From positions 186,001 to 250,000 of the forward strand of contig JAQSCW010000055.1 in assembly GCA_029945625.1 (NCBI GenBank): a stretch of 64,000 bases of DNA, read 5' to 3'. Positions 52,188 to 64,000 of this stretch are shown here, one piece after another. Position numbers and translations under genes: made by a program. The notes below the pieces were generated by a model. It was not told the DNA's origin. It saw only the letters and a list, made by a program, of their open reading frames with translations, and made no database searches. Source of the DNA: a bacterium (GTDB taxonomy: Bacteria; Bacteroidota; Bacteroidia; B-17B0; Aurantibacillaceae). Each line of letters begins with the position of its first letter. Positions within the stretch are counted from its first letter, which is position 1.

Positions 52188-53006
52188 CTACTCGGGCGAT
52201 TCCTGAACATCTGGTGCATTAAAGTTCTTCTTGATCACGCCATTAAACTCTTCATCCAGCAGGGAATTTGTGCAGGAAATCTCTCGACCAAACAACCAAT
52301 TCTCTTTTCCTGAAAAATCAGTCACGGTACCTCCGGCTTCTTTAACGATTAAGGCCCCCGCGGCAATGTCCCAGGCATTGAGGTTGTATTCAAAAAAGGC
52401 GTCTACCCGTCCGCAGGCCAAATAACACAAATCGGTGGCAGCCGAACCAATGCGACGCACGCCATGGGTATGTTCCATGAAGTAGTGCAGACAAGCCATG
52501 TAGGGATTAATGCGGCTAAAATTGTAAATAGGGAAACCGGTGGCGATCAAACTTTCTGAGAGCGTTTTGCGAGAAGAAGTATAAATGGCTTTATGATTTA
52601 AGAAAGCGCCTTTGCCTTTTTGAGCGAAAAAACATTCATCACGACTTACTTCATAAACCACCCCTGCACGTATTTCACCCCTATGCTCCAAGGCAATACT
52701 CACCGAATAACAAGGAATTCCATGAACAAAATTTGTGGTGCCATCCAAAGGATCCACAATCCAATTGTATTCTTTCTTTTCGGAACGGGTATTTTCTTCC
52801 ACAATAAATCCGGCTTCGGGAAGCAGCGTGTGCAGATAAGAAACGATCATCTCTTCAGCTGTTTTGTCTACATAACTCACCAGATCATTCAACCCTTTAA
52901 TTTCTACTTTACCATAGTCAAAATTCTCGCGTTCTTTTCGAATGAAGGCGCCTGCTCTTTTTGCGATTAGAATTATATCTTCTAAAATAGTGTCGGGAAG
53001 TATCAT
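52188..53006 (-). CDS. Inositol-1-monophosphatase family protein (SuhB-like)
   Basis: A 272-residue Mg2+-dependent phosphatase. The metal-site motifs are GFIVEENT, WIVDPLDGTTNFVHG and, near the C-terminus, WDIAAGALIVKEAGG. The family dephosphorylates inositol phosphates, and its bacterial members (SuhB) also work in transcription of rRNA. A TATTTTTG -7 box ends 4 nt before the ATG, suggesting a leaderless mRNA. It lies 51 bp after the stop of the pigment-type operon on the same strand, but its own promoter suggests separate expression. Confidence 0.92.
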   Translation of the reverse strand: MILPDTILEDIILIAKRAGAFIRKERENFDYGKVEIKGLNDLVSYVDKTAEEMIVSYLHTLLPEAGFIVEENTRSEKKEYNWIVDPLDGTTNFVHGIPCYSVSIALEHRGEIRAGVVYEVSRDECFFAQKGKGAFLNHKAIYTSSRKTLSESLIATGFPIYNFSRINPYMACLHYFMEHTHGVRRIGSAATDLCYLACGRVDAFFEYNLNAWDIAAGALIVKEAGGTVTDFSGKENWLFGREISCTNSLLDEEFNGVIKKNFNAPDVQESPE

Positions 53007-53056: not shown

Positions 53057-54586
53057 CTAAGATGCCTCTTTAATCTTTTTCACTAAATAATGAGAACCCA
53101 ACAATTCGGAGCACGTAACTACCGAACTCACCGTGACACCCAATACACCGTGCAAATTCAGATTTTGGCCGGTCAACAGCAAATTCGGAATTTTTGTTTT
53201 TGGTGAAATAAATGTCTTTAGAGGATCACGAATATCTTTTGAAATGCCATATAACGTTCCGTCGCGCGTGCCAATGTAATCGCGGTAGGTGAGAGGTGTT
53301 GAAGAATAGTAGGATTCAATATTTCCCTTCAAATTTGTCATCCGTTGCTCCAGGATCTTAATGAGTTTTTGTGATTTTTGCTCTTTAAAATCCTCGTAGG
53401 CGGCACCGCGTGATTGTTTGTGATTGGGAATAATGTTCAAACTACTGTCCCATTCTTTCATGTCGCTGTACTTCATGTACGTGAGCACAATGACACTATC
53501 GGTGTATTCCGGATTTTTTGAGGAGTACTGAGGGAAGAGCGCAAAGCCTTTGGGCCAACTGGCGTCGTCATAATTAAAAACATCCCATACCTCTTCATTT
53601 TCGTAATGGTATACATTGTGATTAAAGTATTTTACACTCTTGCTTTTCAAAACAACATAGAGAATAAAGGCCGACACGGTATTTTCAAGGTGGTTGATTC
53701 TGTTTCGGTAGGCGTGACGAATGTGTCCGGGCTCAATCATATCCATGGTTCGCGACAGATCGCAATTCGAGATAAAGTTCTTTCCCTCAATTACCCTGCC
53801 GTCGCTCAACTGTACATTTTTGATTGTATCGCCGCTGAAGTTGAATTTAGTGGCTTCACTGTAATTAAAAATATCGCCACCCATGCTTCGGATCGATTCG
53901 GCAAGATATTTTGCGATTTGAGCGCCTCCGTCCATACATTTCCAGGCACTTTCAATGTAGGTGTTAACCACCAGGGCATGCACATAGAGCGGAGTTTTAT
54001 TAGGTTCTCCGGCGTAGAGCGGATTTGTGCCGGCGAGCACACTCTGTAATTTTTTATTAGCGGTAACAGATTCGATATAGGCCTTGGTATCTGTTTCTAG
54101 GAAGTTAGCAGAGATAAGGTCTTTTTGCCCCTCTTCCAGATTATACATGGGGAAAAATTTGCAGATCTCTCTAATCTTAGTGCAATAGCGGGTAATGTTT
54201 TCTCTTTCGCCGGGAAATTGTTCGCTGAGTACTCTGATGAAATTATCATATCCTTGAGAATGCATGTAATGTGTGGGATCCCCGCTGAAGCTGATTCGGT
54301 CGAATCCCTCCACGTCCATAAGTTTTAATTTTAGTTTCCCCATCAAATCGAAATACTTGAAATAGCGATTGAGGTTCTGTCCCTCACTCAAGCCCCCGAT
54401 ATAATGAATGCCGGTGTCAAAAATTACTTTTTCACGTGAAAATATTTGTAGGCTTCCTCCAAGTTGCCTGTTTTTTTCCAAGACACATACTTTAAATCCT
54501 TCTTTAGAAAGAATGTATGCCGAGCAAAGTCCGCCCATACCACTGCCAATAATAACGGTATCGTATTTTTTAGGTGTACTGTTCAA
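53057..54586 (-). CDS. CrtI/retinol-saturase-like FAD oxidoreductase
   Basis: A 509-residue flavoprotein. The FAD-binding motif VIIGSGMGGLCSAYILSKEG (about 11-30) is followed by VLEKNRQLGG and GIHYIGG. The C-terminal end NLLLTGQNLNLHGVLGVTVSS is the second FAD-contact region of phytoene desaturase/carotenoid isomerase-like enzymes. It should add or remove hydrogen across a conjugated chain. It overlaps the upstream gene by 17 bp and is the last gene of the operon, where the polyene product would be its substrate; this is inferred from context. Carotenoid-type activity is less likely since no phytoene synthase is seen. Confidence 0.85.
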   Translation of the reverse strand: MNSTPKKYDTVIIGSGMGGLCSAYILSKEGFKVCVLEKNRQLGGSLQIFSREKVIFDTGIHYIGGLSEGQNLNRYFKYFDLMGKLKLKLMDVEGFDRISFSGDPTHYMHSQGYDNFIRVLSEQFPGERENITRYCTKIREICKFFPMYNLEEGQKDLISANFLETDTKAYIESVTANKKLQSVLAGTNPLYAGEPNKTPLYVHALVVNTYIESAWKCMDGGAQIAKYLAESIRSMGGDIFNYSEATKFNFSGDTIKNVQLSDGRVIEGKNFISNCDLSRTMDMIEPGHIRHAYRNRINHLENTVSAFILYVVLKSKSVKYFNHNVYHYENEEVWDVFNYDDASWPKGFALFPQYSSKNPEYTDSVIVLTYMKYSDMKEWDSSLNIIPNHKQSRGAAYEDFKEQKSQKLIKILEQRMTNLKGNIESYYSSTPLTYRDYIGTRDGTLYGISKDIRDPLKTFISPKTKIPNLLLTGQNLNLHGVLGVTVSSVVTCSELLGSHYLVKKIKEAS

Positions 54587-57500
54587 GTTCTTTTGTGTTT
54601 ATATGGTGAATAACAAAGGTAATATTAGAAGTGAGGTGTGTATCGTCGATGACTTTATACCTGAGGAATTCAAATTTATTCAGCACCTCTCGGATGAGGT
54701 TAGCGGAAGAAAAATGCAATCCTTCTCCGGCTGTTTTATTGAACCCCGAATTGGTTGAAAAGAACTCGGTGTAGCGGGTACCCCAATGACGTTGTTTCTT
54801 ATCGGCATCCGCGTCCCGTATGATCATCACGCCTCCCGGATTCAATTTGTGAACACACTGTTCAATAAGTACTTTTTGTTGTTCCTGTGGCAGGTAATGC
54901 AGCACATCGTTGATGATAAATGCATCGGCAGCTCTGAATACGTGTTTTGTTACATCAGAGCAAATAAAATTCACATTGTCTGATCGGGAAACACAATTCG
55001 CTGCGATATTTATTTTTTCTTCATCGTAGTCAATACCGGTGATCCGACGTTCTTTTCCTGTAAAGGAGAGCATCAGGCTCAAAAATCCGTATCCACAGCC
55101 CACATCGGTGATCTCACCTTGTTTAGGAAGATAACTTTCAAATTGTTTGTAATTGCCTTCCAATTGCACTTTGATGCGGCAATACCACTCCAAAACGGGA
55201 CCTTTAAAAATGTAATTCTTTATTAATTTTGGCCTGAAATAATCTACCGTCTCTTGTTCTTTTCGTAAGTGATTGTATTCTTTTCGCATCCTATCACAAA
55301 CATACTTCGACCGGGCTTTGTAGTCTTCACCGGCAATTGGATCGTTTGCAGAAATGCGGGAAAGGTATTTTAGCGTGAGTTTTCCTTCTTTAAAATGAAA
55401 ATCGCCTTTGGTAACCAAATCTCCGGTTCCGTGCATTAAAACGGGAAGGATATCCAATTGTAATTTCTCAGCGAGATAAAAGGCGCCTTTGTGGAAACGC
55501 AAAATATCGCCGTTTACCGAACGGGTTCCCTCAGGAAAGATCAATACCGAATAACCCTGATCGGTAAGTTTCTTAACCTGCTCGATGGAATTCTCATAGC
55601 CCTTTGAAGCCGGGTAAAAATCGGCCAAGCGCACAATAAATCGGTAGAAGGGGGAGTTCCATACCCAATCGTTTGTGAATACGATGAGTTTGGGATGAAG
55701 CATGAGCAAGAATGCCAGATCGATATGCGATTGATGGTTAGCTATTAGGATGGAGGCTTTCTCGAATTTCTCATTCTGCTCATTGATGATCTCTTTTTTA
55801 ACGTTAAAGAAAAAGTACATGATAAAACGACAAATGATCATAAGAATGAAGTGGAAAAGCAATTTCTTTAAATGCCGTGGTGCAGGAATTAGATAAAAAA
55901 GAACAAGGCCGAATAGGCTTAGGAAAATTGTTCCCAACAGAAAGATCAAAAATCCAATGCCGGTAAGAAGCAGGTTAAACGCGGTATAAGGAAGAAGATT
56001 TCTTTTTTTACGATTCAAGATCATAAAATTATAGCATAGAGGCTGTACTATAAATGAAATAAATAGAACCGTGAATAGGCCAATGATTGTAATGGCAGCA
56101 ATAGAGCGCAGGGCGGGATGTTCGGCGAAGATCAACACTCCTATGCCTATGATGTTAGTGGCTGCGGAAAGAACGATAGAGGTTTTATAGGAAGCCATAT
56201 TTTTTCGGCCGTACTTATATTCATGAGAAAGGCCATCCAGAATAAAAATACTGTAGTCGTCACCTAATCCAAAAATAAAAGTGGAAATGATGATGTTGAT
56301 GATGTTGAATTTGAGACCAAAAAGTGCCATGATACCAAGAATCCAGAGCCAACTGATGAACATGGGCAGGAAATTGATGAGGGCCAGTTCTATTCTTCCA
56401 TGCGCCAACAACATAAAACCAAACACGAGTAAACCGGTGATAATAAGAATAAAACTAAAGTCGGAACTAATGGCAGAAATAAACTGAGCCGTAATGGACT
56501 GCTTGTCGAAGACCACTACCGTTGCATTGTTTTCAAATTCTGAATAGACTTCTTTTTTTGACCCGGACGTAACTTTTACCAGATTCACCAAACTGGCATC
56601 TCCTTGCTCTTCATTTACCCAATCGTTTACCAATAGGGCTTTAAGTGTGTCGATTTCAGAACGAGGAATTGCTGCAAATTGTGTTTGCAGCTGAGTATAA
56701 AATTCCTGAAAAGCGTCCTCCCTAAATTTTAACTCTTTTCCAATGCGAATAAGATTATTTTTGAGTGAATCTCTTTTTGAAACTGTCCAGAAATTATTCC
56801 AGCGTTCAATTCTGATCTTCTGAAGAGAGTCGGAAATCAACACAAGTCCCGGACTTGAAAATTTTTGAATGATGCCACGGTCTTTGAGGTCTTGCAATTT
56901 GGCACAGGTTTGTTCGTTGTGCCGCAAGGCATTTTCAAGTGTAGTTCCTTTAGAGACAACATAGACCGAACTCATTGAGAATTTATTGATTTCATCCAAA
57001 TGCGCTTGAGCGTTCGTGAGCTGATCATTCTGGTAACTCATTTTCATCATGTCACTTTCGAAGCTCACGTGCCGGGCCCAAAATGCAAAAACGATGGTGA
57101 GAATAAAAGCGATGAGGACAATGGGTTTGTTTTTATCAAAGCGGTAATCGAGTATTTTTTCATAGAACGGAATTTTCGCCGGAGCTTCTTGTTCAACTTT
57201 TATTTTTTGAGTTCGTAAGAGATGCGGTAGTACGATGATGGAAAACAAAACCGCTCCAATTAAACTGAAACCGGCAAAAAGACCAAAATCATGTAGTGCC
57301 TGCGACTTAGTAAACTGCAAACTCAAAAAGGCGCCCACCGTGGTGGTGCAGCCAATGAGCATGGGCATCGTGAGGTCTTTGATCACTTGTTGAACAGAAT
57401 GTTCGTGTTTGAAGTGCGTAAAAAAGTGCAATGAATAATTAATGGCAATACCCAATACAATAGATCCGGCTCCAATGGCGATGGCCGAAATTTCTTCCTT

Positions 57501-58442
57501 CAAAAAAAACAGAAGTGTTAATGAAAATAGTCCGCCAAAAACAACCGGCAATAAAATGTAAAAGATTACCAGCAGGTTTCTAAAATACAAAAATAGAAGC
57601 AGGACGATCAACGTCAAAGCAATGGCAGAAGTGACAAGGGTATCGGCTCTGATTTGATCGGAATTGCCCACCGAAACAGCGGCTGCGCCGTAATACTCGA
57701 TCTGAACCGTGTTAAACTCTTTCGCGTAAAATGAAATACTATTTTCTAAAAATGTGAGGAATGCCTTGTTGGTGGCATACTCAGCAGGTTTGGCAGCCGG
57801 CGTAATAAATAGCAAGAGATTCTTTTTGTCTTTTGTTTGAATATAGCCTTGATTCACCTCGAAGTTCGCATCAAATTGCAGGCCTTGAATCTTCTTTAGG
57901 GCAAGCGGCGTAACATGAAGTGGATCGCGTTTGATGAATCGCCCAAGTATCACGCCCGATGGCGACAGCAGAGTATAATAGTCGCGTTGTAATATTGCCC
58001 GCAAACTATCGTCACTCAAACAATTGTTGAGATGTCGATAATCTTCCTGTTCTAAAAAGACAGGTAGGTGCTCGTAAAATGTTGCATAAGTGCGCGACAT
58101 CCTATCGTCGGATACTTTATAATTGAGGTCCTTAATGTAAGCGCTTTGACAACGAAGGAGTGTATCGGCCAGTTTATCGGCACAGGCCATCAAATCCTCC
58201 GGCTCAGTTATACTCGTATCGCGATGTGAGAGAATAAGAACAATCTTATCTTTTATTTTTAATTTTTGAAGTGCGATTTGAATGTCGTTTGATTTTTCAT
58301 TTTTGGGAATAAATTTTGTGATGTCGTCTTCCAGTTTTAATTTGGCACTGAAGTACGAAAAAGCTGCAAATGCGCAGAGTACCGAAACCAAAAGAAGTAT
58401 CTTGTGTTTTTGAAAAAAACTATAGACGCGCAGGGCCGGCAT
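54570..58442 (-). CDS. Trifunctional MMPL transporter / lysophospholipid acyltransferase / methyltransferase
   Basis: A 1290-residue fusion. Residues about 1-850 form an RND/MMPL transporter with two repeats of membrane helices (14-30, about 268-410, 440-457, 662-805 and 820-850) and two periplasmic loops. Residues about 860-1065 are a PlsC-type acyltransferase with NHQSHIDLAF (HxxxxD at 903-908) and FPEGTR (969-974). Residues about 1080-1290 are a class I methyltransferase with TDVGCGYGFLSLM, GIDYDEEKI and a late IINDVLHYLP. I recall this three-part architecture from other Bacteroidetes. In flexirubin or aryl-polyene loci the parts would attach the polyene to a lipid, methylate the head group and export it. 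It lies 5 bp after the glycosyltransferase gene. Confidence 0.9.
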   Translation of the reverse strand: MPALRVYSFFQKHKILLLVSVLCAFAAFSYFSAKLKLEDDITKFIPKNEKSNDIQIALQKLKIKDKIVLILSHRDTSITEPEDLMACADKLADTLLRCQSAYIKDLNYKVSDDRMSRTYATFYEHLPVFLEQEDYRHLNNCLSDDSLRAILQRDYYTLLSPSGVILGRFIKRDPLHVTPLALKKIQGLQFDANFEVNQGYIQTKDKKNLLLFITPAAKPAEYATNKAFLTFLENSISFYAKEFNTVQIEYYGAAAVSVGNSDQIRADTLVTSAIALTLIVLLLFLYFRNLLVIFYILLPVVFGGLFSLTLLFFLKEEISAIAIGAGSIVLGIAINYSLHFFTHFKHEHSVQQVIKDLTMPMLIGCTTTVGAFLSLQFTKSQALHDFGLFAGFSLIGAVLFSIIVLPHLLRTQKIKVEQEAPAKIPFYEKILDYRFDKNKPIVLIAFILTIVFAFWARHVSFESDMMKMSYQNDQLTNAQAHLDEINKFSMSSVYVVSKGTTLENALRHNEQTCAKLQDLKDRGIIQKFSSPGLVLISDSLQKIRIERWNNFWTVSKRDSLKNNLIRIGKELKFREDAFQEFYTQLQTQFAAIPRSEIDTLKALLVNDWVNEEQGDASLVNLVKVTSGSKKEVYSEFENNATVVVFDKQSITAQFISAISSDFSFILIITGLLVFGFMLLAHGRIELALINFLPMFISWLWILGIMALFGLKFNIINIIISTFIFGLGDDYSIFILDGLSHEYKYGRKNMASYKTSIVLSAATNIIGIGVLIFAEHPALRSIAAITIIGLFTVLFISFIVQPLCYNFMILNRKKRNLLPYTAFNLLLTGIGFLIFLLGTIFLSLFGLVLFYLIPAPRHLKKLLFHFILMIICRFIMYFFFNVKKEIINEQNEKFEKASILIANHQSHIDLAFLLMLHPKLIVFTNDWVWNSPFYRFIVRLADFYPASKGYENSIEQVKKLTDQGYSVLIFPEGTRSVNGDILRFHKGAFYLAEKLQLDILPVLMHGTGDLVTKGDFHFKEGKLTLKYLSRISANDPIAGEDYKARSKYVCDRMRKEYNHLRKEQETVDYFRPKLIKNYIFKGPVLEWYCRIKVQLEGNYKQFESYLPKQGEITDVGCGYGFLSLMLSFTGKERRITGIDYDEEKINIAANCVSRSDNVNFICSDVTKHVFRAADAFIINDVLHYLPQEQQKVLIEQCVHKLNPGGVMIIRDADADKKQRHWGTRYTEFFSTNSGFNKTAGEGLHFSSANLIREVLNKFEFLRYKVIDDTHLTSNITFVIHHINTKELEQYT

Positions 58443-58447
58443 GTTGG

Positions 58448-59641
58448 TTAGGATACAGATTTGTTTCTTTTACTAAGTAAAGTTAATGTAAGAAATGTAA
58501 AAAGTCCCATGAACAGTGCCATGCTCACTGCTAACACTGTGGCGCCTACCAGATACGTGAACAAATTCGTTTTCATGTTCTCGAGAGATATATTACTGAG
58601 GGTAATATGCGCTTCATCTCCTGTAACGAGTTCTCCCATCTGAAGACTGGCAATAAGAATAAAAGGGATGAAAGGGGGGAAGCTGATATTGGCTGATAAG
58701 ATCACGATGGCCCGATTCAGTTTTAAAAGATAGGCCGCGGCAATGGCAGAAATTAGTTGGTAGCCCCAAATAGGAACAATGCCAAAAAAAATTCCCAGTG
58801 CCACAGAACTCGATTTATGAAGAATTGTTTCCTGTTCACTGAAAAAATGTTTCACAATAAAAGACTTAATATTTTTTGGCGTGAGTCCTTTAAAGAAACG
58901 CATGGGGGTGTACCAACAAAATGCCAGAATTACCAAATAGGCATTGAGCAAGCTGATACGTGCAAAGTCTTTGTTTTTACGAAAATGTGAAATACGCTCG
59001 GCGGCAGGTGCATAGAAAATCTTCACAGGCATGGAGATGATAGGAATACCTTTCCAGGCTGCTTTTACAATGGCTTCGATTTCAAATTCAAAACGGGAAG
59101 TAAAATAGGTGATCTTCCGCATTTTGTGGATGGGATAGAGACGGTAGCCGGATTGTGTGTCCGGGAGAGTAATACCCGTTTCCACGCGATACCAGAAATT
59201 TGAGAATTTGTTTCCAAAACTGCTTCCTCCGGGTACATTTTCAGAATTCATATTTCTTGCTCCGATAATGAGGGAGTCAGGATGATGAACAAGTTTATCG
59301 AGAAAATGTTCAAAGTCCTCTGGAAAGTGTTGCCCGTCACTGTCAATCGTGATCACATAATGGTAGCCCATTTCCAGGGCCTTGTTAAAGCCATTTCTCA
59401 AGGCCAGGCCTTTACCTAAGTTTTGAGGGTGGGTGATGATTGTAATTTGCTCTGCATAGTGAGACAGAATCTTTGCTGTGCCGTCGTTAGCCCCGTCGTT
59501 CACCACCAGAATGTGATTGGTATAGAGCAGACTATCCTCGATCACCTTTTTTAAAGTACGCTCATTATTGTACGTAGGAATCAACACAGCGCACTTGGCG
59601 TGTTCAAATTTCTCGTTGAGAAGGGGAGGCTTTACAGTCAT
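58448..59641 (-). CDS. Family 2 glycosyltransferase fused to DUF2062
   Basis: A 397-residue protein. The N-terminal GT2 domain (about 15-235) has VLIPTYNNERTLKKVI, VNDGANDGT, and the DxD-type site ITIDSDGQHFPED; PDTQSGYRLYPI is typical of DPM1/WcaA-like transferases. The C-terminal part (about 265-390) has three or four hydrophobic segments of DUF2062 type (FFGIVPIWGYQL, ISFPPFIPFILI). It probably adds a sugar or polar group to a lipid-linked intermediate at the inner membrane. The gene is in the middle of the operon, 64 bp after the dehydratase gene. Confidence 0.88.
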   Translation of the reverse strand: MTVKPPLLNEKFEHAKCAVLIPTYNNERTLKKVIEDSLLYTNHILVVNDGANDGTAKILSHYAEQITIITHPQNLGKGLALRNGFNKALEMGYHYVITIDSDGQHFPEDFEHFLDKLVHHPDSLIIGARNMNSENVPGGSSFGNKFSNFWYRVETGITLPDTQSGYRLYPIHKMRKITYFTSRFEFEIEAIVKAAWKGIPIISMPVKIFYAPAAERISHFRKNKDFARISLLNAYLVILAFCWYTPMRFFKGLTPKNIKSFIVKHFFSEQETILHKSSSVALGIFFGIVPIWGYQLISAIAAAYLLKLNRAIVILSANISFPPFIPFILIASLQMGELVTGDEAHITLSNISLENMKTNLFTYLVGATVLAVSMALFMGLFTFLTLTLLSKRNKSVS

Positions 59642-59705
59642 TTAGAGGAGCCCAAAAAAGGTGTGTAAAATTAGCAAAAAAGGGCGGTTTTAACAGCCAA
59701 AAATG

Positions 59706-60092
59706 TTAGGAGCGAGGGGTAAATTTGCCCTTGAACTTCATATAAGATTGGCCGTTTGCACTATAATTCGCCGATACTTCCAATACATGATTGATTTCTT
59801 TTACTGAAAAGCTGATACTAAATTCATTTTGTTGGGTGGGATTGATGAGGATGAGGAATTTGATATTGTCTCCTGAGGTCATGATCAATTCTTTTTGATA
59901 TTTCTCCATTACAATCTCTTTGATAATTTGGGTGAGACATACCCCCGGCGCAATTGGCACCTGTTCAAAATGACCTTGGTAAACGGGGTGCGAGGGATCC
60001 AGCTTAATGATGGAGGAAAATTCCTGCTGATTTGTTTCTGAAAACGTAGAAGAGATTTCGGTATAAAAGTTTTTTAATAAGGTGTTTTTCAT
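59706..60092 (-). CDS. FabZ/ApeI-like hotdog dehydratase homologue
   Basis: A 128-residue hotdog-fold protein with the dehydratase signature YQGHFEQVPIAPGVCLTQ (about 38-55). The catalytic-type His is His41. At the position where FabZ has its catalytic Glu (PGVxxxE) there is Gln55, so the catalytic pair is incomplete. The protein may be a partner in a heterodimer or use an altered mechanism. It should remove water from 3-hydroxyacyl-ACP during polyene extension. It overlaps the upstream lipoprotein gene by 4 bp. Confidence 0.78.
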   Translation of the reverse strand: MKNTLLKNFYTEISSTFSETNQQEFSSIIKLDPSHPVYQGHFEQVPIAPGVCLTQIIKEIVMEKYQKELIMTSGDNIKFLILINPTQQNEFSISFSVKEINHVLEVSANYSANGQSYMKFKGKFTPRS

Positions 60093-60733
60093 GGCTCCGA
60101 TTTTGAAATTCGTTTTAAATTAATTTTTAAGCGCAAAAGTCCTTTGTGTCTTAGTTTGATTTCTTGTGGTTTCAAATCTTCTGCCATCAGATAGTTAATC
60201 TTAACTGTATTAAAAAAAATTCCTTTTCGCCGTACGTGGTCAATCGCATGAGTGGCTCCCACCGTATAATAATCTCTTTTTTTGCCTTTTATTTTGTAAA
60301 TGTTCGACGTGCCGTTTCTAAAATGAAGACTCTCGGTCTTGTAAAGTTGATAAAGCACAATCAGTTTCATGTCACTTTCAAGCATCGTGGTGATCCGCGG
60401 TTGGTTGATGGGTTCGAAAATGCTGATGAGTTTAAAACTACTGTCACTAATTTCATAATCAAACATTTTCATGCCTATTTCTGTTACAAACGTAACGTGC
60501 GCTGTTTTTGGTGCGGTTTGTTTAAGGAGGATGATTCCGCTGTAATGTTTACGATACAACTGAATATTGGTTTTATAAAGAAGCGATTGCGCGGAGTCAA
60601 TGATCGGCAGCACGGTGTTCTTATCCACTTTCGACGTGCCAATTAGTTTGTAACCGCGCACAGGTGAACAACCCCCCAGCCAGAGGAGAAGCAAACTACT
60701 TAAGAATAAATGTTTGTGGCGAAACCGCTGCAT
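60089..60733 (-). CDS. Hypothetical lipoprotein of the polyene-type operon
   Basis: A 214-residue predicted lipoprotein: N-terminal RFRHKHLFLSSLLLLWLGGC with the lipobox Cys at about 22. The mature part has beta-rich segments (SGIILLKQTAPKTAHVTFVTEIGMKMFDYEI) and a basic C-terminus. I do not recognise a named family. It overlaps the LolA-like gene by 38 bp and its own downstream neighbour by 4 bp. The position next to a LolA-like carrier suggests a LolB-like role in delivering the product to the outer membrane, an inference only. Confidence 0.65.
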   Translation of the reverse strand: MQRFRHKHLFLSSLLLLWLGGCSPVRGYKLIGTSKVDKNTVLPIIDSAQSLLYKTNIQLYRKHYSGIILLKQTAPKTAHVTFVTEIGMKMFDYEISDSSFKLISIFEPINQPRITTMLESDMKLIVLYQLYKTESLHFRNGTSNIYKIKGKKRDYYTVGATHAIDHVRRKGIFFNTVKINYLMAEDLKPQEIKLRHKGLLRLKINLKRISKSEP

Positions 60734-61331
60734 TTAATTTTTTGTTGGAGAAATCAATGGTGGTAATGTCGTTGCCGGGTTCAATCATTTCTATTTTAAC
60801 AACAGAGCTCACACTTTTATCGAAGTACATATTAATGGTCTTCAGACTTTCCTGCATTGTCTTCACGGTAGGAGTGAGTTCAAGTTTGAATTGTTTTTCG
60901 TTCTCAAAGTACGTTATTCTGAATTTGTTAGATCGCAAAACATCGCCATTCACGCAGGAAATCATGATATCATTTATTTCCTTAAAAACCTTATTAGCAT
61001 TCATGTCGTATTTTTTGATCTTATTGTTCTCGTCTTTGATCAGAATCTTGTCTTTATTAATTACGATTACATACCGGTATGGCTCGAGGTACTCCCATCG
61101 AAGGTTGTTTTGTTTCATGAAAACAAACTTGCCTTTGCTTACAATTTTTTCCGAAAGCATTTTGAGATCTTTTATTTGCGTAAAATCACTTTCAATGGAA
61201 TTTGTTTCTTTCGACATCTTGTCCACCTTTATTTTAAAGGCAGATGTATCTTTCATGTGTTTGAAGGGCAGCTGCGCACTCACCCCAAAGGAAGTTAAAA
61301 GTAAAAGTACATATAAAATAATACTAGGCAT
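60696..61331 (-). CDS. LolA-like outer-membrane lipoprotein carrier
   Basis: A 211-residue periplasmic protein with signal peptide about 1-20 (IILYVLLLLTSFGVSAQ). The LolA-type half-barrel pattern is visible: SIESDFTQIKDLKMLSEKIVSKGKFVFMKQNNLRWEYLEPYRYVIVINKDKILI, close to the usual LolA core with a hydrophobic pocket. In polyene loci such carriers are thought to ferry the lipid product across the periplasm. ATG 61331 is used: it gives an 8-bp overlap with the deacetylase stop (ATGCCTAG), whereas the open frame to 61367 lacks a signal-like start. Confidence 0.82.
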   Translation of the reverse strand: MPSIILYVLLLLTSFGVSAQLPFKHMKDTSAFKIKVDKMSKETNSIESDFTQIKDLKMLSEKIVSKGKFVFMKQNNLRWEYLEPYRYVIVINKDKILIKDENNKIKKYDMNANKVFKEINDIMISCVNGDVLRSNKFRITYFENEKQFKLELTPTVKTMQESLKTINMYFDKSVSSVVKIEMIEPGNDITTIDFSNKKLNAAVSPQTFILK

Positions 61332-62094
61332 AAGCACGTTGTTGGCTGAGTTCTTCCAAACCCACAATTTTGTAATTTTCTTTTTTTAAATACTGTAGCA
61401 AATCTGTTAGCACATGTTCTGCTCCCCTCATGGAGTCGTGAAGCAAAATAATTGAGCCGGGTTGGAGTCGTTCTTTAATCCTTTCCATAACCTTTCGGGG
61501 GTCTTTTAGTTTAGTGTCAAACGAACGAATATTCCACCCGATGGTATGATAATTGAGTTTTTTAACTGCTCTCGCCAATGCAGGAGTAGTAACACCATAG
61601 GGCGGACGAAAGTAGAGGGGACGAGTGCCGATAACGCGTTCTATTTGTTCTTCTGCTTGTTTGAGATCACGGTAAAATTGTGTTGCCGTATTTAGATCGT
61701 ACCAAAAATTATGGGTGTAACTGTGATTGCCTATTGTATGGCCTTCTGCTTGCATGCGTTTCAGCAACAACTCATTTCCTTCTATGTTTTTTCCAATTAA
61801 AAAAAATCCTGCTTTCGCATTTTCTTCTTTTAGCACATTCAACACGTTTTCGGTAGAAATTCCGGGACCATCATCAAAAGTGATTGCCACCACTTTTTCA
61901 GCCGTACGAGACCTGCAAAAAGCCTGAAGATGAAATTCGGATTGAATGTAGCTCGCTCCATAGAATTGAAGTACAAGAAAAATAAAAGCCAGAATAAAAT
62001 AGGTGTACGCGGGGGCGCTCACACCAATAAGGGTGATAAGTACAAGCAGTGCGCCTACTACTATTGTGCGGTGCTTCAACATGCCGACACACAT
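61324..62094 (-). CDS. Polysaccharide deacetylase (NodB, CE4-type)
   Basis: A 256-residue membrane-anchored deacetylase. Two hydrophobic stretches at the N-terminus (about 9-50) serve as anchor. The NodB domain (about 66-250) has motif 1 AITFDDGPG with the metal-binding and catalytic Asp residues, motif 2 NHSYTHN with both His ligands, motif 3 RPPYG and motif 5 LLHD. All usual residues are present, so activity is likely. The substrate, a polysaccharide or a glycolipid intermediate of the operon, is unknown. Start ATG 62094 overlaps the ketosynthase-like gene by 19 bp; ATG 62082 is an alternative (7-bp overlap). Confidence 0.88.
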   Translation of the reverse strand: MCVGMLKHRTIVVGALLVLITLIGVSAPAYTYFILAFIFLVLQFYGASYIQSEFHLQAFCRSRTAEKVVAITFDDGPGISTENVLNVLKEENAKAGFFLIGKNIEGNELLLKRMQAEGHTIGNHSYTHNFWYDLNTATQFYRDLKQAEEQIERVIGTRPLYFRPPYGVTTPALARAVKKLNYHTIGWNIRSFDTKLKDPRKVMERIKERLQPGSIILLHDSMRGAEHVLTDLLQYLKKENYKIVGLEELSQQRAYA

Positions 62095-63137
62095 ATGAGT
62101 GAATACAGTTCGTCAGAATGATGGTTGACGATTAGAATATTTCTGAGGGAATTCGGCTTCGTTTGATCGGAAGGTATACAACCGGGCACTAGTTGCTTCT
62201 TGATAATTGAGGTACCTAACCACAAGGCAAATGCACCGGAGGTAAAGTACTCGCCACAAAGTGGTTTAAAATAAGCAAGCGGTATGTTCAGCCGGCTTTC
62301 AAACTCTTTTAATTTCAGATCTTTTTCCACGTCACCGCTTCTACCGGATAAAACAAGATCAATTTCGCTTTTCTTTATAGCTAATTCTGAAAGGAATTCC
62401 AGTGCCATTTCAAGCAGTTCTTCGCCTGAATTTGTTTTCTGAATAGTCTTTACACCGCGAATTTTTGCTAAGGAATTGGCATTGCGTTTTTTTGAGAGAT
62501 TAAAAAATGCGGCGCCTTCTCCGGCCACAGATCCCTTGCTGGTGCTTTCCCATAAAAGTTCTTTAAGATCTTCAGCCGCTTTAATATGTCCTGCCCTTTC
62601 AAATAGTTCCTGCAAAGGAGCATTGAGTTCATCAATTCCTCCTACTAGCACCTGTTGGGCTTCCCCTTCCTTTAAGAGCATTAAAGCATCGAGCAGGGCC
62701 GATTCAAAGGAATTATTTTGATGAACATAAGTAAAATTATGTCCCTGACATTTGGTGAGCAAGGCAATCTGACCTGCAACACTGTTATGGGTAGATTGAA
62801 TGAACGAGGTTGGCGTTAACAATTGTTCTTCGTTATCTACCAAGGCGCGCAGAAATTTATCAGTATCTTCAAAACAACCCATGCCTGTACCAACCACGAT
62901 GGCATCGGGACTCTTAATGCCGGCGCGTTCAAGAGTCATCATACCTGCGGTGATGCCCATTTTTAAAATATGAGAGGCCCGACGGCTCATGGCCGAAGGA
63001 ATGTAATTTTTGTGTTCGAAGGGCGCAACTTTAAGGAATGGGGAGGGGGCAAATGGGGAACAGCCTTCGAAAAAGAAGGTCTCATCCACTGTGTTGTGGT
63101 GTGAAATGCAGGTGGCTCCATTGATAAATGCTTCCAT
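62076..63137 (-). CDS. Ketosynthase-like chain-length-factor homologue (inactive)
   Basis: A 353-residue protein with the thiolase fold of beta-ketoacyl synthases. GTGMGCFEDTDKFL and TPTSFIQSTHNSVAGQIA follow the family. The three catalytic residues are missing: the nucleophile-Cys site reads HQNNSFES (139-146), the first His site reads LSGRSGDVEKD instead of NAHGT, and the second reads CGEYF instead of GH. It is therefore best explained as the non-catalytic partner (chain length factor) of the ketosynthase encoded just upstream. ATG 63137 overlaps that gene's stop by one base (TGATG); a start at 63167 would overlap by 31 bp. Confidence 0.82.
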   Translation of the reverse strand: MEAFINGATCISHHNTVDETFFFEGCSPFAPSPFLKVAPFEHKNYIPSAMSRRASHILKMGITAGMMTLERAGIKSPDAIVVGTGMGCFEDTDKFLRALVDNEEQLLTPTSFIQSTHNSVAGQIALLTKCQGHNFTYVHQNNSFESALLDALMLLKEGEAQQVLVGGIDELNAPLQELFERAGHIKAAEDLKELLWESTSKGSVAGEGAAFFNLSKKRNANSLAKIRGVKTIQKTNSGEELLEMALEFLSELAIKKSEIDLVLSGRSGDVEKDLKLKEFESRLNIPLAYFKPLCGEYFTSGAFALWLGTSIIKKQLVPGCIPSDQTKPNSLRNILIVNHHSDELYSLICVSAC

Positions 63138-64000
63138 CAATTTTTGCTGAAAATTAAGGAGGAACAATTTCCTCCAAATCCGAAGGAGTTAGACATCACA
63201 TGTTGCAGTGCGACGTCGTTTTGCAATGTATCAACCGGGCAAATAGTGAGGTCGGTCATTTGATGCTCACGGTTGAGACAAGGAAAGATCGTATTATGCT
63301 GAAGAGACAAAATTGAGATCACCGCTTCGATGGAGGCGGCTGCAGCAAGTGTATGTCCGGTATATGCCTTGGTAGAACTAAATGCAGGAACCTTTGAACC
63401 AAATACCGTTTGCATGGCTATCCCTTCAGATGAATCATTATTAGGTGTGCCGGTGCCGTGCGCATTGATATAATCAATTTGAGAAGGTTCGAGAGAGGCT
63501 ATCTTCAGCGCTTTTTGCATCGCCAAACAGGCACCTTGTCCTTCGGGAGAAGAAGCCGTTTGATGAAAGGCATCATTAGTATTGCTGTAACCGGTTAACA
63601 GGGCCAGACTTTTTTTTGAGGAGGATTTGACCATCTTTTCCGATTCAAGCATCAGGTAAGCAGCACCTTCTCCCAGGTTCAGGCCTTTACGCTGATCGTC
63701 AAATGGTTTGCACCATTCTTTATCAAGAATCAGTAAGGTATTAAAACCATTCAAGGTGAATAAAGACAAGGCGTCAACCCCGCCCACGAGCACCCTGTCG
63801 AGGATGCCATTTCTTATTAACCGCGCCCCCAGCATAATGGCGTTGGCTGCCGATGAGCAGGCGGTACTAATAGTGGTGACATGATCTTCAATTCCTAAAT
63901 GAGACGCGATCACATTCGTGCTTACCCCACTAAAATGAGAGTCGATAAAATTCCCTTGATACCGATTTTCAAAAAAATCCTTGTACAACAATTCGCTATG
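63137..64000 (-). CDS. Beta-ketoacyl-ACP synthase (FabF-like), 5' end outside the window
   Basis: At least 287 residues; the frame is open through position 64000, and about 110 N-terminal residues are beyond the window. The active-site Cys is in TISTACSSAAN (codon near 63857-63859), the two His in NAHGTGTPNNDSSEG and AYTGHTLAAAA, and the C-terminus ends NSFGFGGNCSSLIFSKN, as in FabF-type condensing enzymes. It catalyses the elongation of ACP-bound chains. With the inactive ketosynthase encoded next, it forms a KS/CLF pair typical of aryl-polyene and type II polyketide loci. Confidence 0.9.
   Translation of the reverse strand, partial: HSELLYKDFFENRYQGNFIDSHFSGVSTNVIASHLGIEDHVTTISTACSSAANAIMLGARLIRNGILDRVLVGGVDALSLFTLNGFNTLLILDKEWCKPFDDQRKGLNLGEGAAYLMLESEKMVKSSSKKSLALLTGYSNTNDAFHQTASSPEGQGACLAMQKALKIASLEPSQIDYINAHGTGTPNNDSSEGIAMQTVFGSKVPAFSSTKAYTGHTLAAAASIEAVISILSLQHNTIFPCLNREHQMTDLTICPVDTLQNDVALQHVMSNSFGFGGNCSSLIFSKN

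Follow-up and report, generated by a model that had tools for sequence, protein, structure and literature searches.

The nine minus-strand genes at 53057-64000 of the window are, at a probability of about 94% judged from sequence, the distal part of a complete cluster for flexirubin biosynthesis and export. Flexirubin is an orange outer-membrane pigment of Bacteroidota. The window is the whole stretch of 64,000 nucleotides that was analysed (G000:C55:186001-250000); its genome comprises 4.12 Mb in 55 contigs, and the 415,516-base contig extends beyond the right window edge, which made the flanking sequence readable. The original prediction had claimed nine minus-strand genes in this region, and all were found as described. 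An inositol-monophosphatase family gene lies directly downstream of the FAD oxidoreductase.

52188..53006, minus strand: inositol-monophosphatase family gene (PF00459, 219 bits)
53057..54586, minus strand: CrtD/CrtI-like FAD oxidoreductase (PF13450/PF01593)
54570..58442, minus strand: MMPL/RND exporter-LPLAT acyltransferase-SAM methyltransferase fusion of 1290 aa (PF03176, PF01553, PF13649)
58448..59641, minus strand: GT2 glycosyltransferase with C-terminal DUF2062 domain (PF00535 and PF09835)
59706..60092, minus strand: DH2, hot-dog dehydratase half (PF07977, marginal)
60089..60733, minus strand: LolB2, outer-membrane lipoprotein partner (NCBIfam NF053540 LolB2_flexi; lipobox-like LGGC)
60696..61367, likely start ATG 61331, minus strand: LolA2, periplasmic carrier (NCBIfam NF053544 LolA2_flexi)
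61324..62094, minus strand: CE4/NodB-type deacetylase (PF01522, 125.5 bits)
62076..63167, likely start ATG 63137, minus strand: CLF1, chain-length-factor-like, without catalytic Cys and His residues (PF13723/PF00109, partial)
63137..64000, full gene to 64327 beyond the window, minus strand: KS1, beta-ketoacyl synthase (Pfam PF00109/PF02801)

The FAD oxidoreductase overlaps the MMPL fusion by 17 bases, and gaps of 5 and 64 bases separate the fusion from GT2 and GT2 from DH2. Further overlaps were found between DH2 and LolB2 (4 bases), LolB2 and LolA2 (38 bases), LolA2 and the deacetylase (8 bases with ATG 61331 as start), the deacetylase and CLF1 (19 bases), and CLF1 and KS1 (1 base with ATG 63137 as start). 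Seven overlaps had been claimed (17, 8, 4, 38, 8, 19 and 1 bases); those of 17, 4, 38, 8, 19 and 1 bases exist, and a second one of 8 bases does not. The nine-gene layout goes beyond chance, because the order repeats in Chitinophaga pinensis (24-48% protein identity) and in the genomes G003 and G004. The inositol-monophosphatase gene is retained in place in G003, G004 and L026, has no counterpart among the matches in L032 from C. pinensis, and probably stands outside the pathway. The FAD oxidoreductase follows the MMPL fusion in C. pinensis too and is probably FlxV, by position; it is similar to CrtD and carotenoid isomerase NCBIfam models at scores far below cut-off.

Genes for an ammonia-lyase, a ligase, ACP and DarA/DarB had been forecast past the right edge, and all of them were found within about 25 kb. 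Extended window coordinates are used for genes beyond 64000 (L005 position + 59999, or L006 position + 79999, for the two extension pieces of the same contig), and families were assigned by Pfam and NCBIfam profile searches.

64356-64724, minus strand: ACP1
64618-65259, minus strand: KS fragment, 213 residues
65256-66383, minus strand: KS3
66390-66812, minus strand: thioesterase
66805-67257, minus strand: DH1 (no Pfam hit; weak FabZ similarity in NCBIfam)
67319-68398, minus strand: CLF2
68368-69555, minus strand: KS2
69565-69828, minus strand: ACP2
69838-71869, minus strand: ABC permease and ABC ATPase
71860-72873, minus strand: DarH
72866-73270, minus strand: DarG
73293-74438, minus strand: DarB (NF053539)
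74449-75348, minus strand: DarA (38% identity and position beside DarB in C. pinensis)
between DarA and the LpxL-like acyltransferase, minus strand: small hypothetical protein
75908-76810, minus strand: LpxL-like acyltransferase
76818-77075, minus strand: ACP3
77095-78315, minus strand: KS4
78321-79052, minus strand: KR
79104-80630, minus strand: ammonia-lyase, FlxA (PF00221, 532.5 bits; NF053541 FlxA_rubin_TAL)
beyond the ammonia-lyase, plus strand: O-methyltransferase, halogenase-like flavoprotein and DUF218 protein, in this order
85636-86808, minus strand: LPLAT2 (without a hit in Pfam or NCBIfam; name given from its sequence and its relatives)
86777-88075, minus strand: AMP ligase, FlxY (NF053551 FlxY_rubin)
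88072-89778, minus strand: C45/AAT-like protein

The halogenase-like flavoprotein beside the O-methyltransferase (81847-83088; L006:1848-3089) matches PF04820 Trp_halogenase and carries a WIWIIP stretch. It may chlorinate the aryl ring, and C. pinensis has a 58% identical counterpart.

Seven proteins exceeded the curated NCBIfam cut-offs for flexirubin or dialkylresorcinol (DAR) families: LolA2 (LolA2_flexi, 211.9 bits versus a cut-off of 125), LolB2 (LolB2_flexi, 93.3 versus 60), DarB (617 versus 550), DarG (183.5 versus 170), DarH (457.7 versus 300), the tyrosine ammonia-lyase FlxA (813 versus 700) and the ligase FlxY (641.4 versus 520). DarA had no match in Pfam or NCBIfam. The set of KS/CLF, KR, DH and ACP is complete in the locus, with DH1 and DH2 weakly matched by the family models. 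The gene that might have been taken for an unknown lipoprotein is LolB2, and the former label was rejected.

Comparison with known clusters, proposed beforehand as a check, revealed colinearity with both the flexirubin and the DAR loci of C. pinensis. A scan with the 1290-residue fusion returned 29 loci, one of them from C. pinensis isolate 3 (L032); L036 was dropped as a 29% match to the methyltransferase stretch only, and 28 loci were compared. The C. pinensis reference is record LR632930.1 (isolate 3), and the strain of PMC3992019 is DSM 2588. L032 has the window order KS fragment-ACP-KS-CLF-deacetylase-LolA2-LolB2-DH2-GT2-fusion-FAD oxidoreductase, with identities from 24% (LolB2) to 55% (ACP1) and 42% for the MMPL fusion. 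Two further C. pinensis stretches match the flanking genes: HAL-KR-KS-ACP-LPLAT-DH1 in L039 is colinear with them, and L038 has DarA-B-G-H-ABC-ABC-ACP-KS-CLF in the same order. In the C. pinensis record, however, the polyene cluster maps to about 5.79 Mb, far from DarB at 2.05 Mb, whereas here they form one run of genes. The O-methyltransferase and halogenase-like genes are also placed differently: C. pinensis has them between KS3 and the KS fragment, and in the present contig they are upstream on the opposite strand. For C. pinensis flxP-flxU, which include polysaccharide deacetylase, acyltransferase, LolA, glycosyltransferase and exporter, a role in export has been proposed (PMC3992019). The claim of a flexirubin or aryl-polyene locus is thus supported by the forecast genes together with the colinearity with two C. 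pinensis loci.

Two other readings of the locus were weighed. A pigment-free locus for fatty acids, lipid A or another envelope lipid that has KS/CLF-like genes would account for the LPLAT, LpxL-like acyltransferase, GT2, deacetylase and Lol proteins, which are found in envelope-lipid loci too, and it would fit the KS, DH, GT2, deacetylase and exporter scores, which lie below the equivalog cut-offs of the matched NCBIfam models. Against it stand the colinearity, gene by gene, with both C. pinensis loci and the passing of the FlxA, FlxY and DarB models, on which a plain fatty-acid or lipid A locus was rejected; in addition, no gene was annotated as enoyl reductase, though KR also matches PF13561, which bears that name in Pfam. 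We regard this reading as extremely improbable. An absence of ACP, ligase and starter genes, or a locus with only fatty-acid or lipid A relatives, had been named in advance as the opposing outcome and did not occur.

An aryl-polyene (APE) lipid cluster of the kind known from E. coli or Xenorhabdus, which would lack dialkylresorcinol, has somewhat more in its favor and is still very unlikely. KS:CLF, a DH pair, LolA/LolB-like proteins, an RND transporter and acyl-/glycosyltransferase genes are common to this locus and the ape cluster found in E. coli (PMC8253772, Table 1), and the ape clusters of E. coli, Xenorhabdus and Acinetobacter offer counterparts in ApeO:ApeC, the ApeI/ApeP dehydratase pair, the Lol-like ApeL/ApeN, the RND transporter ApeM and the acyl-/glycosyltransferases ApeD/ApeJ (PMC8253772, PMC8358021, PMC8041823). 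The best solved match of CLF1 also points this way: in the PDB search it was 6qsp_B (E 2e-7), from the X. doucetiae ApeO-ApeC complex (PMC8358021), where chain B is assigned to the ApeC partner because of its length of 239. However, DarA, DarB, DarG and DarH with an ABC/ACP/KS/CLF cassette lie within the same gene run, and the LolA2_flexi and LolB2_flexi models were passed. The passing of the FlxA and FlxY models likewise strengthens the flexirubin reading and weakens that of a plain aryl polyene. An ape-type locus would have no DAR genes and a hydroxybenzoate starter; a DAR cassette and a tyrosine ammonia-lyase were found instead. The E. coli cluster differs accordingly in its 4-hydroxybenzoate starter and the lack of DAR genes in its gene table, and a single gene there, ApeJ, is a predicted glycosyltransferase/acyltransferase, whereas here an LPLAT domain is fused to the exporter (PMC8253772). 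Because of the DAR genes and the flexirubin-named NCBIfam models, the locus is read as flexirubin rather than plain aryl polyene; the DAR cassette plus FlxA and FlxY are what makes it flexirubin-type.

The polyene and export part alone is no proof of flexirubin, since 12 of 25 fusion-bearing genomes had no DarB at E 1e-60; in the other 13 DarB was over cut-off. This check covered 25 of the 28 fusion loci (L011, L023 and L035 were left out), in genomes for which completeness was not given, and the export and polyene part may occur without DarB.

Two other described systems are close to this one. By published description, F. johnsoniae UW101 has one 37-kb cluster with DAR genes, LolA2 and LolB2, in which darB is Fjoh_1102 and lolB2/lolA2 are Fjoh_1084/1085 (PMC3992019, PMC11885536). 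For the arcuflavin of Azoarcus sp. BH72, an aryl polyene is joined to DAR, the genes for PS-deacetylase, exporter, LolA and acyltransferase occur together (arcN-arcR), and the dar genes are accompanied by ABC transporter, ACP and KS; this system differs in its chorismatase starter and in its two unlinked arc loci, with dar about 20 genes from one of them (PMC3949708).

Among 87 genomes of the window's order, LolA2 was over cut-off in 31 and DarB in 31, with both in 30; LolA2 only was found in G001 (78% complete) and DarB only in G062 (58% complete). The pair was present in 4 of 40 genomes of the window's own genus. LolA2 and DarB are no more than 15 kb apart in 3 of the 30 genomes (G000, G003 and G004, all of the window's genus) and about 157 kb apart on one contig in G086. 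For the other 26, the best DarB is on a different contig from LolA2, and in those genomes that are fragmented the two may still be linked; G052 has a second DarB on the LolA2 contig, about 668 kb off. In G003 and G004 there is a single locus, with DarA-B-G-H-ABC-ABC-ACP2-KS2-CLF2 inserted between the LpxL-like acyltransferase and DH1. The dialkylresorcinol cassette thus lies inside the polyene operon in this genus and apart from it in C. pinensis. Since linked and unlinked arrangements have both been reported previously (PMC3949708), its position is variation within a known kind.

Three further arrangements were observed. In a Bacteroidales MAG (L020:2-2349), DarG, DarH and an ABC ATPase adjoin DH1 with no DarA or DarB match there, and at E 1e-60 no DarB turned up in the genome; the MAG may be incomplete, or DarG/DarH may function independently of DarAB. 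In G007 (C20:34932-36041) and G040 (C39:21327-22436), both of the window's genus, a diverged DarB-like stretch scoring 351.6 and 394.4 bits, below cut-off, lies in a 620-residue frame, and no LolA2 was over cut-off. In a close relative (L010:160-7820), the end of the locus is rearranged: ACP2-KS2-CLF2 runs straight into GT2 and the exporter fusion without an intervening KS1 module.

Active sites were compared in alignments that left out L036 and sequences with <70% coverage. The Cys-His-His triad was intact in KS1 (16/16, window included), KS2 (4/4), KS3 (13/13) and KS4 (13/13), and the three positions were lost in CLF1 (13/13) and CLF2 (6/6). The KS fragment had lost its active-site residues in 12 sequences, in an alignment that stops short of the His positions. 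In a FastTree tree, KS1 and KS2 grouped together (support 0.80) and all CLFs stood apart from the KSs (1.0). CLF2 (6 sequences) formed a clade within the CLFs (0.82) and KS2 (4 sequences) a clade of its own; the CLF1 sequences did not form one. The KS from L038, which holds the C. pinensis DAR cassette, grouped with KS1 rather than KS2. By position the DAR cassette has its own KS and CLF, and the tree gives no clean history.

DH2 matched PF07977 at E 9.1e-5, but with 22.5 bits versus a cut-off of 23, and gave weak FabZ matches in the PDB search, where DH1 and the KS fragment had no match. The joint alignment of DH1 and DH2 was about 2 residues out of register at the active site (H in the His column in 1 of 15 DH1 rows), and the residues were therefore scored by within-family alignments and the 14-residue His-Glu spacing. 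In the register of the 6n3p alignment, DH2 keeps the FabZ-type His in 16/16 sequences and has Gln replacing Glu in 16/16. DH1 keeps the Glu in 15/15, and 14 residues before it has I, V, L or P, never His. The active sites of DH1 and DH2 are thus incomplete and complementary, DH2 having the His and DH1 the Glu. The two active-site residues of FabZ come from opposite subunits, so that pairing of DH1 with DH2 would give a single complete site. Acinetobacter ApeI/ApeP are described as "heterodimeric dehydratases with a single active site" (PMC8041823); DH1 and DH2 resemble such a pair in that each keeps one half of the His/Glu pair, and they would have to form one complex.

In 24 of the 28 loci, among them that of C. 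pinensis, matches spanned at least 96% of the 1290-aa MMPL/LPLAT/MTase fusion, and contig ends truncate the other 4; because the fusion itself served as the query that retrieved these loci, the figure shows only that it is widespread. The idea of a novel architecture was rejected on this nearly full-length matching. F. johnsoniae LolA2 and LolB2 lie in the flexirubin operon, and transport of the pigment or of lipoproteins has been suggested for them (PMC11885536).

The deacetylase matched the peptidoglycan GlcNAc deacetylase 2c1g in the PDB (E 3.5e-35) and was under cut-off for every NCBIfam deacetylase model listed. Its FDDGP, NHS..H and RPP.G stretches are conserved in 10 sequences (those with <70% coverage left out), and by eye its N-terminus has two hydrophobic stretches. 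It adjoins LolA2 in all 10 fusion loci where LolA2 was seen; in a second set of seven genomes including C. pinensis, it lies beside LolA2 in five and not in two (L047, L051). Of 28 loci, 21 have GT2 ahead of the fusion and 3 are cut by contig ends; the remaining 4 (L024, L027, L029 and L030) have none, so GT2 is not universal beside the exporter. GT2-DUF2062 showed weak NCBIfam similarity, far below cut-off, to AglJ, PpgS and an undecaprenyl-phosphate aminoarabinose-type transferase, and six weak PDB matches, chondroitin synthase first (E 2.9e-6), then GalT1 and sll0501 (E 4.4e-6). It appears to resemble polyprenyl-phosphate glycosyltransferases weakly.

The known product does not explain GT2 and the deacetylase, because no sugar is part of flexirubin as it has been described. 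Aryl-polyene lipids contain glucosamine. The lipid A aminoarabinose pathway has a glycosyltransferase/deacetylase pair in ArnC and ArnD. By analogy with this pair, we tentatively suggest, as a possibility on the unlikely side, that GT2, the CE4 deacetylase and the exporter-fused acyltransferase could be an ArnC/ArnD-like unit yielding an aryl-polyene amino-sugar lipid, either an intermediate or a by-product of flexirubin. In this scheme, GT2 would attach an N-acetylated sugar to a carrier lipid, deacetylation by the CE4 enzyme would free the amine, and the acyltransferase would add the aryl-polyene chain. A glycolipid anchor for aryl polyenes has been discussed (PMC8253772), and a preprint on aryl-polyene lipid structure is cited (Grammbitter et al.); a literature search on that structure gave the term 'aryl polyene' in none among the matches listed.

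Gene content, gene order, family membership and active-site residues were observed directly. For the proposed pathway, starter chemistry, elongation and the outer-membrane site follow the literature; the export order and the substrates of GT2, deacetylase, LPLAT and methyltransferase are our own proposal. The tyrosine ammonia-lyase FlxA would produce 4-coumarate and FlxY would activate it. For C. pinensis, biochemical work has shown the flxA product to be a tyrosine ammonia-lyase, and flxY encodes a 4-coumarate-CoA ligase; ammonia-lyase substrates are described as not predictable from sequence alone (PMC3992019). The KS:CLF pairs, ketoreductase and two-part dehydratase DH1:DH2 would extend 4-coumarate on ACPs to the aryl polyene, with KS1:CLF1 and DH2 as the share of the window genes. 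DarA/DarB would form the dialkylresorcinol, to which the aryl polyene would then be esterified; flexirubin as described is such an ester of polyene and dialkylresorcinol (PMC3992019). The MMPL domain would take the pigment across the inner membrane, LolA2 would carry it through the periplasm, and LolB2 would insert it into the outer membrane. In this export, the LPLAT domain, GT2 and the deacetylase probably serve to make or use a lipid carrier, perhaps an amino-sugar one.

The cluster is an ordinary flexirubin cluster; its fusion, gene set and linkage variation are of an already known kind, and with it a pigment cluster well known in chemotaxonomy gains a complete member. The dehydratase split over two half-sites is a small testable point, and the recurrent glycosyltransferase-deacetylase-acyltransferase unit in flexirubin producers is a second. 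If the amino-sugar variant were true, flexirubin would pass through, or be accompanied by, an aryl-polyene amino-sugar lipid so far missed by solvent extraction.
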